The translations under genes were made by a program, and so were the position numbers. Shown here piece after piece: positions 18,779-29,311 of a stretch of 64,000 nt of DNA; within the stretch, counting starts at the first letter, position 1; the number at the start of each line of letters is the position of its first letter. The notes under the pieces are model-generated. The model had not been told where the DNA came from. It made no database searches and was given only the letters and a program-made list of their open reading frames with translations. The stretch is from positions 62,001 through 126,000 of the forward strand of contig BQJC01000002.1 of NCBI GenBank assembly GCA_021604505.1, read 5' to 3'. Origin of the DNA: Nitrospinaceae bacterium. GTDB lineage: Bacteria > Nitrospinota > Nitrospinia > Nitrospinales > VA-1.

Positions 18779-20236
18779 TTAAAGGGAATTTTGCTCTTCC
18801 GCAGGGGGAAGCAAATCCATACTTTCCAGGTAGGAACGAATTTCGGATTTGTACGAGACGAACGGGTCCAGCATGAGAAAGGGTTCTTCATTTTTACTCA
18901 AGCGGAATCCGATCCAATCGATGAGATAACCGGCGTGGGTCCCCATCAATGCCCGGATCAACTCCCCGCGCCCGTCGGCCCGGGTTCCCTTGGGCGGATT
19001 GGTTTTTGAATGTGCGATCGCCGCATCGCTGGTTTTTCGAAACGCATCGCCGCTTTCCTCCAGGCCCCAGTAAAGCCCCGATTGGCGGTTCAAATTATGA
19101 TACTCCAGGTCCTGACTTTTCAGCCAGGGGTCCTGCCAGGCGATGTTTTCTTCTTTTTTGAATTCCGAAAGCATCCAATATTTGCTGGCCCAGTCCACCC
19201 TTCCCAGGAGAGCTTCCGGTCCCTTGGGAATGTCTTTCAACACAGATTCCCAGTGCGTCAAAATCCAGTCCGCTTCGTGCGTGGAGCCGCCCAGATATTT
19301 TTTTGCAGTGTCCAGAATGTCCAGCTGTAATTCCAAAGCGTTGCTCCGGTTGCCGTCGCGCATGGTGATTTCCCATTTGAAATCCTGATCGCGTGAAATC
19401 GAGCGCATCGCCCCGACCGACTCCGCCAGTATCCATTCCCGCTTGGCAAAACCCTGGTCCACCAAATCCAGCATCAGACCGGTGACGCCCATTTTCATGG
19501 CGGTGGCAAACTCGCTCATATTGGAATCGCCGACCAGAAGATGAATGCGCCGGTATTTACTGGGATCGGAAAGCGGTTCGTCGCGTGTATTGACGATCGC
19601 CCGGTTGTACTGCACCCACCGGTAAAACTCGTTGGGAATGTGATCCGCCCGTTGCGAAATCTGAAAGTCCACCTGTTCTTCGTCATCGACTTCCATGGAG
19701 ATGCCGTCCCAATCCCGAAACGGATGCGGGTTGCACGCCCCGATCCGCCCTGCGCCGCAATAGATTTGCCGGGTCACCAGAAAGGCCGAGAGAATTTTTA
19801 AATTGTCCCGCTCGTCAAAAGGAAATGACCGGCTGACCAGATAATTTTCATGACAGCCGAAGGTGGCGTTGGTCTCCAGATCGACATTGTTTTTTATGAT
19901 AGCCACCTGATCGGACCAGCCCAGATCCTCCACAGCGTCCTGAACCAGTTGATCACCCGCCCGGTCGTAAGTGATCAGATCCACCAGATTGGAACATTCG
20001 GGCGATGCGTATTCCAAATGCCCCATATCCAGATACAACCGGCCTCCGTTGGCCAGAAAACCGCCGTTGCCGGGCGGCTCGTCGTTGGCCCGGTAATGCA
20101 GGTCCAGCACCCCCATCTTGTTAGAGAAAACGTGGTTCTTGATGCGGTTGGCGATTTCGACCGGATCGTAACGGAACTCATTGTCCTTGATGAGAAGCCC
20201 GTACTCCGTTTCTATCCCGTAGATGCGTTTTTTCAT
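18779..20236 (-). CDS. pafA: Pup/UBact--protein ligase PafA
   Basis: A 485-residue member of the glutamine-synthetase-like Pup ligase family. It attaches the C-terminal glutamate of Pup to lysines of target proteins using ATP. The N-terminus RIYGIETEYG carries the ATP/Mg-binding glutamates. The catalytic aspartate is Asp70 in GGRLYLDMGHLEYASPE. TRDEPL and HLLVGDSNMSE are further family blocks. It is told from Dop by GHLEY in place of HPEY and by the lack of the Dop loop. It is the last gene of the proteasome operon and overlaps prcA by four bases (ATGA). Confidence 0.95.
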   Translation of the reverse strand: MKKRIYGIETEYGLLIKDNEFRYDPVEIANRIKNHVFSNKMGVLDLHYRANDEPPGNGGFLANGGRLYLDMGHLEYASPECSNLVDLITYDRAGDQLVQDAVEDLGWSDQVAIIKNNVDLETNATFGCHENYLVSRSFPFDERDNLKILSAFLVTRQIYCGAGRIGACNPHPFRDWDGISMEVDDEEQVDFQISQRADHIPNEFYRWVQYNRAIVNTRDEPLSDPSKYRRIHLLVGDSNMSEFATAMKMGVTGLMLDLVDQGFAKREWILAESVGAMRSISRDQDFKWEITMRDGNRSNALELQLDILDTAKKYLGGSTHEADWILTHWESVLKDIPKGPEALLGRVDWASKYWMLSEFKKEENIAWQDPWLKSQDLEYHNLNRQSGLYWGLEESGDAFRKTSDAAIAHSKTNPPKGTRADGRGELIRALMGTHAGYLIDWIGFRLSKNEEPFLMLDPFVSYKSEIRSYLESMDLLPPAEEQNSL

Positions 20237-20994
20237 TGTTTTAGGACCGCGGTTTTAAGTTTCTCGATTTCTTTAGGGTTGAGCGTCCGGTAAATGGACC
20301 GGCGGTCGGTCGAAGCGGAAAGCACCGCCGCCTCCAGGTTCCACTTTTCAAACGCTTCTTTCAAACCGATAGAAAGCTCAGGGGTTTCGTCTTCTTTATC
20401 CTCACCCCGGGCGATCTGATTTTTTCCCTCTTCCCAGAGTTTACACACCTCGGTCAATGCTTTATCGAGAGGAAAAGTTGCAAAGGGAGTTTCCTCCATT
20501 TTTTTATCGATCCATTCCATCACCTTGTCGTCACCGGCAATGGAACCACCTTGATTCAAGGTTTCCCAGTATCCGTCATAATTCAAGCGGAAAAAATTAG
20601 GTTTGCCGTCCGGGTCGAGTTCTAAAAGAAGAAGTTTGATCAGATAGGGCGCCCGCTGAACCTCCTCAAAGTTTTGCTTGAGCGCCGGAGCAATACCGAA
20701 CTGCAGCATTCTGGCAATGGTCACATCCTGGGCGGAACGGTTGAACCCTTCCAGATGCGCCATGTCGAGGAGCGTCATGCGCATTTTTTCCACGTCCGCC
20801 GGATGTCCCATACCGCCCATGGCGATGCGGTCATACACCTCGAATATTTTTCCCGGCTGAGGAGAAAACCCCAGCATGAGGGCGCCATCCTGATACGGGA
20901 CGGCAATGACCGGTTGGCCGCCTTGCAGTTTTTCCCGGACATAGCTGTGACGGGTGGAAATGGCCTCCATCCAGCGAAACGGTTCCTCGAACAT
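20233..20994 (-). CDS. prcA: Proteasome alpha subunit
   Basis: A 253-residue 20S proteasome alpha-type subunit that forms the outer rings and gate of the core particle. It shows the alpha-type order: RWMEAISTRHSYVREKL (H0-like N-terminal segment), PVIAVPYQDGALMLGFSP, YDRIAMGGMGHPADVEKMR, and later DGYWETLNQGGSIAGDDKV. There is no N-terminal catalytic threonine, as expected. It begins two bases after prcB and overlaps pafA. Divergence from actinobacterial PrcA appears high, but the neighbour genes make the assignment firm. Confidence 0.93.
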   Translation of the reverse strand: MFEEPFRWMEAISTRHSYVREKLQGGQPVIAVPYQDGALMLGFSPQPGKIFEVYDRIAMGGMGHPADVEKMRMTLLDMAHLEGFNRSAQDVTIARMLQFGIAPALKQNFEEVQRAPYLIKLLLLELDPDGKPNFFRLNYDGYWETLNQGGSIAGDDKVMEWIDKKMEETPFATFPLDKALTEVCKLWEEGKNQIARGEDKEDETPELSIGLKEAFEKWNLEAAVLSASTDRRSIYRTLNPKEIEKLKTAVLKQ

Positions 20995-20996
20995 CC

Positions 20997-21797
20997 TTAC
21001 CCCCGACTCATGGATTTTTGATAAATATTTGGCATATCCTCTTCAGGGATAAAACGATACCCGTCTTCGGTGACCGTGGAGATGACCGGGAACAGTTTGT
21101 CTTCCGGGCGCGCCTGACCGGTGGCGGAATCAAACTGCGCGGCGGTTTGCAAAAGGCGAATGGCCAGCTTCGTCGCTTCCGATTCGCTGCGCTCCACGAG
21201 GGGCTTCTTCCCCCAAAGGTCTTCATGTTCCAGGATGCCGCGAATCATCGGAGACCCCGATCCTGTCGCGCAATGAGTGAGAATACGAAAATCCGCGCCC
21301 AGCATGTCATAGAAATAGATCAAAGGTTTTTTATTTCTTAAATCGTAAGTGGCAAAAATCGGGCTCACCGCGCCCACGCCCTGAAGCGCCATGCCCACGT
21401 TTTCTTTGAGCAGTTTTGACAGCGCCCGGATTTTTCCTTCGGTGCTCATCGACTGCATTTGAGAGCGCCGGTAATACTCAAAATTATGAGACAGAATACG
21501 TGCCATTTCAAACGCCGTCGCCGGCACTCCGGCAATCGCCATCAGAGAATAGTCGTCGATGGGAATCACCTTGTCGCAGCGCTCATACATGATACTGTTA
21601 CCTGCCGTGGCGCGGCGGTCACCGGCCATCATCACGCCGTCCTTAAAATGAAACGCCAGAACGGTGGTGGCATTCGGCACGGTGACTTTTCCGGCTCCAT
21701 CGTAATTCTTCAAATGGGCGTGTAAGCGGTAGCCTGACTTTTGCAAAAGCTCAAAGAAATCGCCGGACGTATGAAGTGGGTCTTCTTGAGATTTCAT
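20997..21797 (-). CDS. prcB: Proteasome beta subunit
   Basis: A 266-residue catalytic subunit of the 20S core particle. A 43-residue propeptide precedes TTVLAFHFKDGVMMAGDRRA. Cleavage before Thr44 would expose the nucleophile Thr1, and Asp17 (AGDRRA) and Lys33 (ERCDKVIP) fall at exactly the canonical spacing. The true start is the ATG at 21797, which overlaps the pup stop (ATGA). The frame stays open back to 22010, but that part overlaps pup and dop in another frame and is not proteasome-like. It is followed two bases later by prcA. Confidence 0.96.
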   Translation of the reverse strand: MKSQEDPLHTSGDFFELLQKSGYRLHAHLKNYDGAGKVTVPNATTVLAFHFKDGVMMAGDRRATAGNSIMYERCDKVIPIDDYSLMAIAGVPATAFEMARILSHNFEYYRRSQMQSMSTEGKIRALSKLLKENVGMALQGVGAVSPIFATYDLRNKKPLIYFYDMLGADFRILTHCATGSGSPMIRGILEHEDLWGKKPLVERSESEATKLAIRLLQTAAQFDSATGQARPEDKLFPVISTVTEDGYRFIPEEDMPNIYQKSMSRG

Positions 21798-21970
21798 TGA
21801 CCCGTTCGCTGTTTGTATCGTTCCGATTGCTTCGGGTCCACGCGCTTCATTCGCTTTAAGAGATTGTCCCGGCCCGGACGGGAGACATCCGGCCCCGTGG
21901 GTCCGCTGTCCTGCCTGTCGGGGGTGGATTCTCGTTTTTCTTCCCTCCTCAGAGGATCGTTCATATCCAT
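21794..21970 (-). CDS. pup: Prokaryotic ubiquitin-like protein Pup/UBact
   Basis: A 58-residue hydrophilic protein, rich in charged residues, Pro and Gly, with no Cys or Trp, as expected for an intrinsically disordered modifier. The C-terminal half contains RPGRDNLLKRMKRVDP, then SERYKQRTGQ, ending in Gly-Gln. This matches the UBact/Pup C-terminal pattern; the terminal Gln would need deamidation by Dop before ligation by PafA. It contains five lysines (12, 39, 42, 47, 53). AGGAG lies eight bases before the ATG at 21970. A second ATG at 21964 forms an ATGA overlap with the dop stop. Position between dop and prcB is the standard pup locus. Confidence 0.94.
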   Translation of the reverse strand: MDMNDPLRREEKRESTPDRQDSGPTGPDVSRPGRDNLLKRMKRVDPKQSERYKQRTGQ

Positions 21971-23448
21971 GCGAACTGCTCCTTTTTTGAGTTAAGCATT
22001 TTTTCCACATCGGCGGGGGTGATCACCTGCGATAGATCCAGATCATCGCCTTGTTTAAACTCCACCCCGGTCCAATGAATTTTTTCAATATTGTCCAATT
22101 CGTTCTGGACCACCAGGCCGCGAATCATCGCCCGGGTCCCGTCCGGAGGCTGGCGAACCGCCTGCGTCACATCTTCTTCAGCAAATAGTTTCAACACGTT
22201 TTCATCCTGTTCCAATCCGCGGTAGAGACCCCGGTCCGGGTCCAGGTTATGGTATTCCAGATCGAGGCTCTTCAGCCAAGGATCGTCCCAACCTATTTTT
22301 TCTTCCTCCAGAAACTGAGTGAACAGTTTTTCCTTGATCGCCCAGTCGATGCGATCCGAAAGCTTTTCCGGGCTGTTCTCCAATTCATGCAGGGTCCGGC
22401 GCCATTCGTGAATGATCCAATCGGTTTCCTTACAGCGCCCCTTATAATTTCCCTCAACGGCATCCAGATAGAAATTTTGAATTTCAAGCGGCGTGATCGT
22501 CTGCCCCGAGACCGTTTTGAGCAAGCCTTTCCCGGTTTTATCCAGGGAGACCCGCTTCACATCCTGAACGGGATCGCCCAACTCCGGAGGATGGGGAAGT
22601 TTTTGCTCACCAACCAACGAAAGCACCAGCCGCGTGGTCCCGACTCTTAAGGCCGTGGCATAAGCGGACATATTGGCGTCGCCTAAAATCAGATGCAGTC
22701 TCCGGTATTTTTCCTTTACTGCATGCGGCTCATCCCGTGTATTAATGATGGGACGCTGAGTCATCGTCTCGATGCTCAGAAGACTTTCAATAAAATCGGA
22801 GCGCTGGCTGAGCTGGAGCCCGGAAAACTCCGGTCCCTTGCGGTTTTCAGACCCCACCTTGCCCGCTCCGGCATAAAGCTGACGCGTCACTAAAAAGGCA
22901 ACGAGGCCACAAACCCAATCGTCAAACGGCAGGTTCCTGGGAATGAGAAAGTTGTCGTGCGTTCCATAACTGTGGCCGCTGTAATCGGTGTTGTTCTTAA
23001 ACAACTGCACGACATTTTGCCCAAGATCCTGATTGCGCAACCGCGCACATTCTGCGACGATCCTTTCACCCGCCAAATCATGGGTCACCAACTGAAAAAC
23101 GCTGTTGCATTCCGGCGTGGTGTATTCCGGGTGCGTGTGATCGTTGTAAAAACGCGCTCCATTGACCAGCACCCGATCGCACTTCATCTCCCAATAGGAA
23201 TACGGCCGCTTGCGGTCCTCGGCGCAAAACTCGTCTTCTTCTTCGTCCTGCGCCAGAGACGGGACTTTAAAACCGCGAAGATCCAGATGCGAATTTTCCC
23301 GCCGGTAAGACCAGGCCCGAAACACACTGGGAATCTCGCAACGCTGAAGCAATTGCATGGATTCCTCCACCGGGTCCGAGGACTCCACATCTTCGCGGAT
23401 GATTCCGTATTCGGTTTCAATCCCCATCAGGGGAACGATGTCACTCAT
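21961..23448 (-). CDS. dop: Pup/UBact deamidase and depupylase Dop
   Basis: A 495-residue glutamine-synthetase-like enzyme that deamidates the C-terminal Gln of Pup and removes Pup from substrates. MGIETEYGIIRED opens the protein. Asp103 in GARFYNDHTHPEYTTPE corresponds to the catalytic aspartate of Dop, and the HPEY form marks Dop rather than PafA. Residues about 40-85 form an acidic insert typical of the Dop loop region (SLAQDEEEDEF). It overlaps arc by four bases (ATGA) and pup by ten. A Dop with deamidase function fits the Gly-Gln end of the pup product. Confidence 0.95.
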   Translation of the reverse strand: MSDIVPLMGIETEYGIIREDVESSDPVEESMQLLQRCEIPSVFRAWSYRRENSHLDLRGFKVPSLAQDEEEDEFCAEDRKRPYSYWEMKCDRVLVNGARFYNDHTHPEYTTPECNSVFQLVTHDLAGERIVAECARLRNQDLGQNVVQLFKNNTDYSGHSYGTHDNFLIPRNLPFDDWVCGLVAFLVTRQLYAGAGKVGSENRKGPEFSGLQLSQRSDFIESLLSIETMTQRPIINTRDEPHAVKEKYRRLHLILGDANMSAYATALRVGTTRLVLSLVGEQKLPHPPELGDPVQDVKRVSLDKTGKGLLKTVSGQTITPLEIQNFYLDAVEGNYKGRCKETDWIIHEWRRTLHELENSPEKLSDRIDWAIKEKLFTQFLEEEKIGWDDPWLKSLDLEYHNLDPDRGLYRGLEQDENVLKLFAEEDVTQAVRQPPDGTRAMIRGLVVQNELDNIEKIHWTGVEFKQGDDLDLSQVITPADVEKMLNSKKEQFAWI

Positions 23449-25061
23449 ATGATCGACCGTCTAATGGTGGTCTCAGCCTGACGGTCCGACTGATTCGGTT
23501 TGCGAACCCGGACCACATGGCGCGACTCCATATCCAGCAATTGCAACCAGTCTTCAAGATTCGATTCGGCGGGCAGAAGACTGCTTTCCGTGAACTCCGT
23601 CTCCAGACATTTCAATAGATCCTCTACCGTGATTTGCAGTTCCTTACCGATGATGGCTCGCTCGATCGCTTGTTCCTTGGCGCGTTTCACAATGCTTTCA
23701 ATCACCGCTCCGGAAATAAAATCTTTCCAATAGAGTTTTTTGAAGTCGCCGCTACGAAGCGTCAAAACCAGAACTTCCTGATCCGGAGTCCGCTGAAACA
23801 ATTTTTCCAGAAACGGTTCGGCCATATCCTCAAAGTTTTTATGCTCCATCGGAAAGCTTTCCTTGAGATACACCTTGAGGATGGCCTTGCAATCCTTGCG
23901 GTCCGGCCGTCCCACTTTGATCTTACGGTCGATTCTCCCAGGACGCAAGATAGCGGGATCAATAAGATCCGGGCGATTGGTGGCCAGGATGACAACCGTG
24001 TCCCGCAAAGATTGAATGCCGTCCATCTCGGCGCAGAACATCGGCACCAGCGTATTGGAAATATTCAAACCGCGGCTGGCCTGCCGGGTTCCTAAAACAG
24101 ATTCCGCTTCATCAATAAAGATGAAAGGAACTTGTCCCTTTTCTCTATAATCGCGAGCCTTCTGGAAAATTTCGCGGATTTTCCGTTCCGATTCGCCCAG
24201 CCACATGTTCAAGATCTCCGGGCCTTTGACGTGAATGAATCTTCCTTGCAGATCTTTTTCTTCCTTGCCGGAAAGTTTGCGGATGACTTCTGTCAATATG
24301 GCTCTTCCCATCAAAGTCTTCCCACAGCCGGGAGGCCCATAAAATAAAAATCCCTTGGGCATCTGGTATTCCATCTGACTTAAAATTTCTTTGTGAAGAA
24401 TAGGATACTCGATCACTTTGCGGACTTCTTCGATCATTTTTTCCTGACCGCCCACCTGATTCCAATCCACCGGGCTATAGTCATCATCGGTGAACCCTTT
24501 GGATTCGCGCTTGGCAAGTTTTCCCAAAATCACTTTCTGGTTGGGATCCAGAAACACTTCTTCACCCTCTTTCAAAGAGGCGGGGTCGAGATCGTCATGA
24601 TGGAGCGCCATATTTTCTGATCCTGCGCTGGAGCCGGTGACCAGCCACTGACCATTAGCGAGCTTACTCGTGATTTTGACCAGGGGCCCCTGCGCGGGCA
24701 AAGGCAATTTGGTAATGGCGACAAAGCCTTCATTGAGCGCCACCTGATCCCCTGTTTTCAGCGAATCGTTTTCTACCAACTCCGGCGAGACAGCGGCCTG
24801 ATACTCCGTGCCGCCGACGACCAGGCGATAAAGGCCGTTTTCCCCTTCTCCCAATACCGTTCCGATGCGATGGGCGGGAGATTTTAATTTTTCTACCGTT
24901 TCCTCAAGGGTCTTGATCTTCAAAGATAATTGCTGAACCATTTGCTGGGAATGAAACAAGGCATCGCGCAAATCGAAAATCTTTTCCTGCAGATTCGGTT
25001 GCGCGGAGGTTTCCTCAAGGATCTGATCGATCAACTCTATGATGTGGGTTTGGTCGCCCAT
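23445..25061 (-). CDS. arc: Proteasome-associated AAA ATPase ARC/Mpa
   Basis: A 538-residue ring ATPase that recognises pupylated proteins and threads them into the 20S core. Order: N-terminal coiled coil (about residues 20-62), two OB domains (about 65-180), and an AAA domain with Walker A GPPGCGKT at 242-249, Walker B FIFIDEAE at 313-320 and the arginine-finger region LRPGRIDRKI. The C-terminus reads ETTIRRSII and lacks the GQYL-type tail by which actinobacterial Mpa docks on the proteasome. It is the first gene of the operon, with a good promoter 34 bases upstream. Confidence 0.95.
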   Translation of the reverse strand: MGDQTHIIELIDQILEETSAQPNLQEKIFDLRDALFHSQQMVQQLSLKIKTLEETVEKLKSPAHRIGTVLGEGENGLYRLVVGGTEYQAAVSPELVENDSLKTGDQVALNEGFVAITKLPLPAQGPLVKITSKLANGQWLVTGSSAGSENMALHHDDLDPASLKEGEEVFLDPNQKVILGKLAKRESKGFTDDDYSPVDWNQVGGQEKMIEEVRKVIEYPILHKEILSQMEYQMPKGFLFYGPPGCGKTLMGRAILTEVIRKLSGKEEKDLQGRFIHVKGPEILNMWLGESERKIREIFQKARDYREKGQVPFIFIDEAESVLGTRQASRGLNISNTLVPMFCAEMDGIQSLRDTVVILATNRPDLIDPAILRPGRIDRKIKVGRPDRKDCKAILKVYLKESFPMEHKNFEDMAEPFLEKLFQRTPDQEVLVLTLRSGDFKKLYWKDFISGAVIESIVKRAKEQAIERAIIGKELQITVEDLLKCLETEFTESSLLPAESNLEDWLQLLDMESRHVVRVRKPNQSDRQAETTIRRSII

Positions 25062-26922: not shown

Positions 26923-27927
26923 ATGAAAGCCGAATCCGCGATAAATTTCGGCATGGGATCCATCCCTTCCGAGCGGTTCTGGCTGGAAAACAGCCTTTTA
27001 AACCGGACCCGGTTGAACCGGTTTATATTTTATTCGTTCATCATCCACATAGTTGTTGTTTTGCTCCATTGGCTGATGCCGGACCAATCCGCGATCAAAA
27101 ATCCGAATCCTATCAACGTAAAATTTGTCGAACCGGAAAAACCCAAGAGCGAATTGGAGAAGGGCACGATTATCGACGCCCCAAAACCGAAAAAAATCGA
27201 AAAACCCCAATCGGCGGATCTACTTGCCAGCCATGACAGCCGCGCGCATTCCAATCTTAAAAATACACCTGAAAAAGAGTATCGACGAAAAAAAACGGTC
27301 GTTCCAAAATCATCGGGAGTCCCGAGAGTTGCCAAAAATTTACCGATGACTCCTCAAAAGAAAGTGAAGCCATCGGCCGCAAAGCAAAAAACCGAGGAAA
27401 GTAAGCATTCGTTTCCTCTTTCAGACCGGGGAACCTTTGTCCCCCTTGCTAAGGAAAAACCGAAAAATGAAAGCAACCCCAATTTAAACTCGGGAACAAA
27501 AGGATCTCTTTCTCTGTTGGATGGATTCGATCCCAATAAATATGCGTCTCTGGACACGAGGTCAGAAAATCTGGAAGAGGCCGACGATGGCGAAGACGTT
27601 TCACTCGACACCACGGAGACTAAATACGCTTCCTACTTCGCCAGGATCAAACACCAGATCGAACGCGTGTGGACCTATCCCAGTGAAGCGGCGCAAAAAG
27701 GAATCAACGGAAGACTCACACTGCGTTTTCGAATTTCCAAGGAGGGCAACCTGATCAGCGCACGTGTGGTTGACAAATCGGGCCATGAAATTCTTGACTA
27801 CGCCGCCGTCAAGGCCGTAAAAGAAGCAGCGCCCTTTTATCCCTTTCCGGAAAATATTAAAAAGGATAACCTATCCATCCTGGCCACGTTTATCTATAGC
27901 CCCACCTATGGATTGTTAAAAAATTGA
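26923..27927 (+). CDS. TonB-family energy transducer
   Basis: A 334-residue protein with a cytoplasmic start, one transmembrane helix (about residues 35-52), a long Pro/Lys-rich periplasmic spacer (about 60-200), and a C-terminal TonB domain. That domain contains YFARIKHQIERVWTYP, GRLTLRFRISKEGNL and VKAVKEAAPFYPFP. Such proteins pass proton-motive energy to outer-membrane transporters. No ExbB, ExbD or TonB-dependent receptor is adjacent. The final FIYSPTYGLLKN differs from the usual TonB end but matches other bacterial TonB-like proteins of this type. Confidence 0.85.
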   Translation: MKAESAINFGMGSIPSERFWLENSLLNRTRLNRFIFYSFIIHIVVVLLHWLMPDQSAIKNPNPINVKFVEPEKPKSELEKGTIIDAPKPKKIEKPQSADLLASHDSRAHSNLKNTPEKEYRRKKTVVPKSSGVPRVAKNLPMTPQKKVKPSAAKQKTEESKHSFPLSDRGTFVPLAKEKPKNESNPNLNSGTKGSLSLLDGFDPNKYASLDTRSENLEEADDGEDVSLDTTETKYASYFARIKHQIERVWTYPSEAAQKGINGRLTLRFRISKEGNLISARVVDKSGHEILDYAAVKAVKEAAPFYPFPENIKKDNLSILATFIYSPTYGLLKN

Positions 27928-28039
27928 GCCAATCCTCAAACCGGAATCACCATGCAAGAGTCCTGGTTTTTCCCCATATTGATTTTTGCGCCTGGTTTGC
28001 TATCCTTACGCCCTGTCTCTCAAAGGAAAAAGTTGGCCC

Positions 28040-29311
28040 ATGCCACCGCTGACTGACACCCCAAAATCTCTGCGGAAAAATACGGAACCGTTCGTGGTAC
28101 TGGTTCTACCCAATCCGCCTTCTCCGTGGAACATGATCGACTGGTATTGGAAAAAAATCGCAGGTGTCCCTTTTTTATTGAGAAATATTCTAAGTCTTCA
28201 AGAAGCCGGGGTCAGTCACCTCGTTCTCTTCACAGAAAACAGCGCCGCCAAGCTCAACGAGCTGTTCCGGCGGGCGGAAACCGACCCCAGGCTAAAGTTA
28301 AAATTACAATGTTATTCAGAACCGGGCCCATTCCTTACATGCGCCAGGGAAAACCGTCATGTCCTTTTCCTGGACGGTTCCACTCTGCAAAACAAAGACA
28401 CCGTTGCCAGTGCAATAAAACCAGATATCCAAAAACCGAACCAGGAAACCGGTCAGCCACTGCATCTCAGCACTCTGGAAGCACTCATGCGACACACCAA
28501 TGAGTGCGGCGTTTTATCCTGGCCTGAAAAATTCCAATGCACCGACCTTCCCCATCAAACATCGCCTCAACAAAATTCAAGCACCACCATGGATTTTTTG
28601 AAAAAAAATGAAAATTATAAAATCACCCAGCCTGAAGACTTTATAGAGATAGGCAACCGGCTGATCAGATCCTGCGGATTGAGCAACGACAGTTTCATGG
28701 ACAAATTAATCACACGCTCGATTTCCCGCCAATTGACCCGTCAAATTATAAAGACCCCTCTCACGCCCAACCTGATCACACTCATTAGCCTTGCGATTGG
28801 ACTGGGCTCTGCGGTCTGTTTTTTGTCGGGAAGTTACGGAATGGGCGTGGTGGGCGGCGGACTATTATTGCTCTCCACCTGGATCGACTGCACCGACGGT
28901 GAAGTGGCCCGGCTCAAGTTTTTAGAATCCCCTCTTGGAAAACAGATGGATATTATTTGCGACAACCTGGTTCACATGGCGGTCTTTTTTTCCATGGGGG
29001 TGGGATTGCAAAACGCCACTGGCAATGACCTTTTCATTTTTCTTGGCGGACTGGCCGTCCTGGGTTGTCTTATTTCCTGCGTTTCACTGGCCCCGGAAAT
29101 CATGAAAAACAAAATTCAACCGGATGCATCGAAACCCGTTAATGGCGCCCCCAAAAGCATCACCGATCAACTGGCCAACCGCGACTTCACTTATCTTTTA
29201 TTTTTCATGGCCCTGATCGCAAAACTGGATATTTTTTTAGTGCTGGCCGCCGCCGGGTCTAATGTATTCGCCGGATATGTCCTTTACAACAGGTTTAAAA
29301 CCGCTTCTTGA
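28040..29311 (+). CDS. Nucleotidyltransferase-like / CDP-alcohol phosphatidyltransferase fusion
   Basis: A protein of about 423 residues in two parts. Residues 1-about 200 resemble a nucleotidyltransferase fold (GVPFLLRNILSLQEAGVSHLVLF) but lack the signature GxGTRM loop. The C-terminal half is a membrane CDP-alcohol phosphatidyltransferase with the complete motif DCTDGEVARLKFLESP...GKQMDIICD, i.e. D-G-x2-A-R-x8-G-x3-D-x3-D, and several transmembrane helices. The architecture recalls bifunctional inositol-phosphate cytidylyltransferase/phosphotransferase enzymes. A role in making a phosphodiester-linked lipid or solute is inferred. The start is the ATG at 28040; an upstream TTG at 27986 is possible. 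Confidence 0.75.
   Translation: MPPLTDTPKSLRKNTEPFVVLVLPNPPSPWNMIDWYWKKIAGVPFLLRNILSLQEAGVSHLVLFTENSAAKLNELFRRAETDPRLKLKLQCYSEPGPFLTCARENRHVLFLDGSTLQNKDTVASAIKPDIQKPNQETGQPLHLSTLEALMRHTNECGVLSWPEKFQCTDLPHQTSPQQNSSTTMDFLKKNENYKITQPEDFIEIGNRLIRSCGLSNDSFMDKLITRSISRQLTRQIIKTPLTPNLITLISLAIGLGSAVCFLSGSYGMGVVGGGLLLLSTWIDCTDGEVARLKFLESPLGKQMDIICDNLVHMAVFFSMGVGLQNATGNDLFIFLGGLAVLGCLISCVSLAPEIMKNKIQPDASKPVNGAPKSITDQLANRDFTYLLFFMALIAKLDIFLVLAAAGSNVFAGYVLYNRFKTAS

Follow-up and report, generated by a model that had tools for sequence, protein, structure and literature searches.

In Actinobacteria, a modifier that ends in Gln needs deamidation by Dop before it can be ligated by PafA (PMC7947786, PMC8755798), and Mpa docks on the 20S particle through a C-terminal GQYL motif (PMC8755798; PMC8223512). 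The active-site residues of Dop and a Trp of the Dop-loop have been described from Dop-Pup structures (PMC8599861). The name UBact comes from Lehmann et al. (2017, BBRC), as cited in PMC12751074, and on the strength of that citation the family is not new. Here, we examined a window of 64,000 nucleotides, that is, the whole stretch of DNA analysed, from a bacterium that its named relatives place in Nitrospinota, and we document in it a modifier gene, its family, its operon, its conservation and the intact residues of its partner enzymes. We put at about 0.94 the probability that this gene codes for UBact and that UBact serves as the Pup-like modifier in a complete proteasome system of the pupylation type.

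The minus-strand frame 21970-21794 translates as MDMNDPLRREEKRESTPDRQDSGPTGPDVSRPGRDNLLKRMKRVDPKQSERYKQRTGQ, a protein of 58 amino acids ending in Thr-Gly-Gln, exactly as a sequence-only reading of the window had claimed. The overlaps with both neighbours that this reading described are also there: the 5′ end runs 10 bases into dop, whose stop lies at 21961, and the 3′ end shares the 4 bases ATGA with the start of prcB (ATG at 21797). An AGGAG Shine-Dalgarno sequence stands 8 bases upstream of the ATG of the small gene. Profile searches of the product passed the curated cut-offs of both UBact models, with 71.8 bits for Pfam PF20513 (cut-off 27.8) and 73 bits for NCBIfam ubiq_like_UBact, NF033388 (cut-off 35), and exactly one match to these models was found in the genome, so that the proposed Pup/UBact-type identity could be narrowed specifically to UBact. 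The tail QRTGQ presents the Gly-Gln after QR[TS] of the family, and Dop/PafA homologues, ARC and the 20S genes lie alongside, in a compact minus-strand operon with the order ARC-Dop-UBact-PrcB-PrcA-PafA (Table 1). The gene had been called hidden; it is indeed masked by a long prcB frame, but pipelines that use NF033388 or PF20513 do find it. Because two curated models are passed, the match is single in the genome, the frame is conserved and a Shine-Dalgarno sequence precedes it, sequence comparison confirmed the 58-codon frame as a genuine gene, far beyond chance. Judged by its sequence, it is an ordinary member of the known UBact family from a Nitrospinota genome.

Table 1. Features of the UBact operon in the window, in the order of transcription.
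Feature	Position	Strand	Evidence
ARC/Mpa-type proteasomal AAA ATPase, N-terminal coiled coil, C-terminus RRSII	23445..25061	(-)	TIGR03689 373 bits, below cut-off; OB + AAA domains
Dop-type enzyme (deamidase/deconjugase), acidic Dop-loop, conserved loop Trp	21961..23448	(-)	Pfam Pup_ligase 486.6 bits; best NCBIfam model Dop, below cut-off; 4b0r alignment
AGGAG Shine-Dalgarno of UBact, inside the 3′ end of dop	21979..21983	(-)	Sequence
UBact, 58-aa protein modifier, Thr-Gly-Gln end	21794..21970	(-)	PF20513 71.8 bits; NF033388 73 bits; 58/77 phylum genomes
PrcB, 20S beta subunit, real start ATG 21797	20997..21797	(-)	Pfam Proteasome; TTVLAF N-terminal Thr, GDRR, CDK residues
PrcA, divergent 20S alpha subunit	20233..20994	(-)	Pfam Proteasome 26.1 bits; TIGR03691 52 bits, below cut-off
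PafA-type ligase, without Dop-loop	18779..20236	(-)	Pfam Pup_ligase 427 bits; best NCBIfam model PafA, below cut-off; 4b0t end-to-end alignment

UBact was present in 50 of 60 relatives and in none of 14 control genomes. Within the phylum 58 of 77 genomes carried it. Each of the four families in the order of the window is represented among them; a search of five further families of the class found none. Scanning GTDB genomes yielded 80 UBact loci, spread over Nitrospinota, Nitrospirota, Armatimonadota and Verrucomicrobiota. UBact lay immediately before prcB in nearly all loci long enough to show it; the order dop-UBact-prcB was seen in 31 loci from Nitrospinota and in 20 others, bearing out the expectation that the small frame is kept at this place in relatives, and an overlap of the ATGA type joined UBact and prcB in 57 of 78 loci. 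Twenty Nitrospina-type loci (among L045-L073) had UBact shifted to a position between prcA and prcB. Three Nitrospinaceae loci each contained a second prcB-like gene (L051, 4327-5127; L057, 4327-5127; L060, 4220-5119), with the N-terminal Thr intact in the two second copies read, and a mixed beta ring is possible there.

Comparison of 21 diverse UBacts identified G23, P24, P27, L38, K39, R40, M41, V44, D45, P46, Y52, Q54, R55 and G57 as invariant, and across phyla the core LKRM, VDP, Y, QR and G stayed constant. A census of 114 tails, in which some loci are counted twice, gave RTGQ in 90, RSGE in 10, RTGE in 7 and RSGQ in 6, while one was cut by a contig end. The ending R[TS]G[QE] was thus found in 113 of 114 loci, the sole exception stopping at a contig edge, and it is a property of the whole UBact family and not special to the window gene. 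Among named Nitrospinota loci 52 tails ended in Gln and one in Glu; the remaining loci comprised 16 Glu and 11 Gln tails, the Gln group including a Nitrospinota locus cut by the contig end (L088), and the genus Nitrospira holds both types. The single Nitrospinota UBact found with a C-terminal Glu (L087, 5932-6168, Nitrospinia OFTM166) sits in a locus that is otherwise complete and keeps Dop.

The genome of the window contains exactly two Pup_ligase paralogues. The Dop-type enzyme aligned over residues 7-465 with Acidothermus Dop (4b0r) and retains both Glu residues of GIETEYG; the Arg, Tyr, Asp and Glu within GARxYxDHxHPEY; NTRDEPH; the His residues of the active site; and the Trp of the Dop-loop. 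The PafA-type enzyme aligned to Corynebacterium glutamicum PafA (4b0t), and the Dop-loop is absent from it. PrcA, PrcB, ARC, Dop and PafA all scored under the NCBIfam cut-offs, which were trained on actinobacteria. Since Dop and PafA both keep their active-site residues, and Pup is absent from the genome, deamidation by Dop followed by ligation by PafA is, by analogy, a sound prediction, and the first of these steps had already been proposed from the Gln end.

Modelled on the actinobacterial system, every biochemical step of UBact tagging can be given a putative form. UBact would be made with a C-terminal Gln and be translationally coupled between dop and prcB. Dop would convert this Gln to Glu by deamidation, and PafA would then activate the gamma-carboxylate with ATP and attach UBact to lysines of the substrate. 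The last 26 residues of UBact, probably two short helices split by Asp-Pro, may bind both the groove of Dop and PafA and the coiled coil of ARC, whereupon the N-terminal half would be threaded into ARC and then into the PrcA/PrcB chamber. Dop would also be able to remove the tag.

How UBact is recognised is the point at which the sequence-only reading was least successful. It had held that the basic block SERYKQRTGQ sets UBact apart from Pup and implies a different recognition mode by ARC and PafA. The last ten residues of Mycobacterium tuberculosis Pup, VRAYVQKGGQ (checked against 7px9; the Mpa sequence was checked too), nevertheless carry the same net charge of +2 as SERYKQRTGQ. The inversion is found in the preceding helix, where DNLLKRMKRV of UBact (+3) stands against DDLLDEIDDV of Pup (−6), and the spacing Leu-Leu..Met/Ile..Val is common to both, so that a different mode does not follow. 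Besides the charge of this helix, a mode unlike that of Pup is favoured by the more acidic UBact-side enzymes, with a median net charge of −24 for Dop and −22.5 for PafA versus −9 to −16, and by an ARC coiled coil that is a little more acidic than the one in Mpa (about −2 versus +1). Against it speak the shared hydrophobic spacing, the identical charge of the last ten residues and the small number of charge-flipped columns (R397 to D and R409 to E in Dop, R357 and R361 to E in PafA, and others), none of which could be placed in the groove. We therefore consider a separate recognition mode unlikely. A sign-blind shuffle test on the UBact/Pup register gave 0.0005, which is weak evidence because the recoding was chosen after the pattern had been seen. 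A Pup-like binding mode with swapped charges appears the likelier one from the sequences compared, and the Dop, PafA and ARC coiled coil on the UBact side, only somewhat more acidic overall, would fit such an exchange.

A further question is whether tagging by UBact leads to the proteasome. The ARC of the window ends in RRSII and does not carry GQYL, and ARC tails across UBact loci (L035-L112) were rich in Ile/Val, for example RRSII, RRNVI and VNQII, again with no GQYL. Because the tail is devoid of the penultimate Tyr of the actinobacterial motif, coupling between ARC and the 20S particle is not assured. The absence of the motif throughout the UBact loci read would suit the idea that UBact in this lineage is a reversible modifier and does not serve mainly for proteasomal degradation. 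We hold this to be improbable, given that the 20S genes belong to the same overlapping operon and that the N-terminal catalytic Thr of PrcB is intact.

Returning to UBact as the modifier of a proteasome system, we asked how close it stands to Pup. A true Pup (PF05639) in place of UBact would occupy the same position, with the same partner enzymes and a similar C-terminal register. Yet the Pup model matched neither the window protein nor anything else in the genome, the C. glutamicum control being positive, and comparison of the UBact and Pup profiles, which aligned in the expected helix register with UBact four residues shorter, gave an E-value of 0.13, which is not significant. In addition, the tail is Thr-Gly-Gln and not the Gly-Gly-Gln/Glu of Pup, and PDB chains, including Pup, showed no significant sequence homology to UBact. 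We consider it very improbable that the protein is a true Pup; common descent of UBact and Pup is possible.

The longest prcB frame extends to 22010, 71 codons past ATG 21797. Among 53 named Nitrospinota loci the prcB frame above the UBact end was open for at least 71 codons in just one and closed within 10 codons in 25, so the extension is an artefact, as the sequence-only reading had judged, and the true start of prcB is ATG 21797, overlapping the UBact stop. The alternative of a prcB start near 22010, with the 58 codons being a chance overlap and no gene, has those 71 open codons in its favour and can be dismissed, since the extension is confined to one of the 53 loci and the UBact frame is conserved, scores over curated cut-offs and has a Shine-Dalgarno sequence.

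UBact was also found on metagenomic phage contigs. We scanned 2.9 million IMG/VR contigs with an alignment of diverse UBacts and then with a phage-specific alignment, obtaining seven loci from the former and two from the latter, that is, nine contigs and six distinct proteins. The phage UBacts tested all scored above the Pfam UBact cut-off, UBact-model matches were found on contigs with phage hallmark genes, and every copy ended in Glu. An origin of these frames from host loci was ruled out: no ARC, Dop, Prc or PafA lay nearby, and the same queries found a Nonomuraea control locus.

One lineage is T4-like (L118-L123, L139, L140) and carries a Glu-ending UBact upstream of a dNMP kinase gene, as well as a phage tmRNA. 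In a 36-kb contig of this type (G079), UBact occupies 27877-28041, shortly upstream of dNMP kinase, an arrangement repeated in L121, L122 and L123, and the contig also encodes a phage primase, thymidylate synthase, ribonucleotide reductase and exonucleases. Of the last 28 residues of the T4-like UBacts, 21 to 24 are shared with the nearest UBact of Nitrospinota, and no other group exceeds 18; dN/dS among these copies was 0.04 to 0.21 in the cases that allowed its computation. A cytochrome c adjoining UBact in G079 showed up to 70% identity to Nitrospinales proteins (best E-value per genome about 1e-29 to 1e-55); in families of the class that lack UBact, the same cytochrome c reached only 1e-8 to 1e-15. 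The tmRNA tags of the phages, ANDYDVAIAA and ANDYSYAIAA, are similar to ANDYDVAVAA, the tag found in the genome of the window. The cytochrome c and the tmRNA tag indicate that the T4-like UBact phages probably infect Nitrospinales. A ClpP-like protease is encoded on one UBact-bearing phage contig (L123, 3180-3734). A second case, unrelated to the T4-like lineage, is a UBact-like frame ending in RQRSGE (L124/L136, 2768-3079, contig G083), located in a Mu-like head cluster with the portal gene on one side and the minor-head gene on the other. The Glu end of phage UBact would bypass deamidation by Dop; it may have been inherited from a host donor, since L087 shows that Glu occurs in a Nitrospinota host.

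A similar scan for Pup gave 33 viral contigs with Pup relatives (L142-L174). The three phage Pup proteins tested all match Pfam Pup, and in seven loci (L144, L148, L152, L153, L158, L164 and L168) Pup has terminase, portal or other head genes in its vicinity. The stretches read around phage Pup, reaching up to 8 kb on each side, showed no ARC, Dop, Prc or PafA, and the scan made found no Dop/PafA relative on any viral contig. No PHROG family matches the phage modifiers. A search of GenBank phage records found neither UBact nor Pup, and the phage finding therefore rests on metagenomic contigs. A search of the open-access literature returned no report of phage-encoded Pup or UBact, which thus appear to be new. 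As no viral Dop or PafA was found, the phage would supply the tag alone and rely on host enzymes. On balance we favour the view that these phages carry their own modifier and use the ligase and proteasome of the host, so that host tagging is redirected, saturated or replaced during infection.

Taken together, the main use of the window gene is that it offers a clean operon, a Gln-terminal modifier and an ARC without the usual proteasome-docking tail, and the most interesting result, phage-encoded UBact and Pup, lies outside the window. Should phages indeed supply pre-activated UBact or Pup, their takeover of the host would be aimed at bacterial proteasome tagging too, and they would offer naturally occurring modifier variants as well as a direct way to test what role pupylation has in infection.

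Compared with known systems, the locus shares with the UBact family (PF20513, NF033388) both curated models, the C-terminal R[TS]G[QE] and an operon with Dop, PafA, ARC and 20S subunits, and differs from it in nothing essential. With actinobacterial Pup (PF05639) UBact has in common its size, the Gly-Gln/Glu end, the partner enzymes and the hydrophobic register of helix 1; in contrast, it shows no significant match to Pup, its helix 1 is basic and not acidic, the stretch between the helices is about four residues shorter, and a single Gly replaces Gly-Gly. The two enzymes belong to the Dop/PafA carboxylate-amine ligase family (PF03136), with its active-site residues and a Dop-loop confined to Dop, whereas they fall below the actinobacterial equivalog cut-offs and are more acidic.
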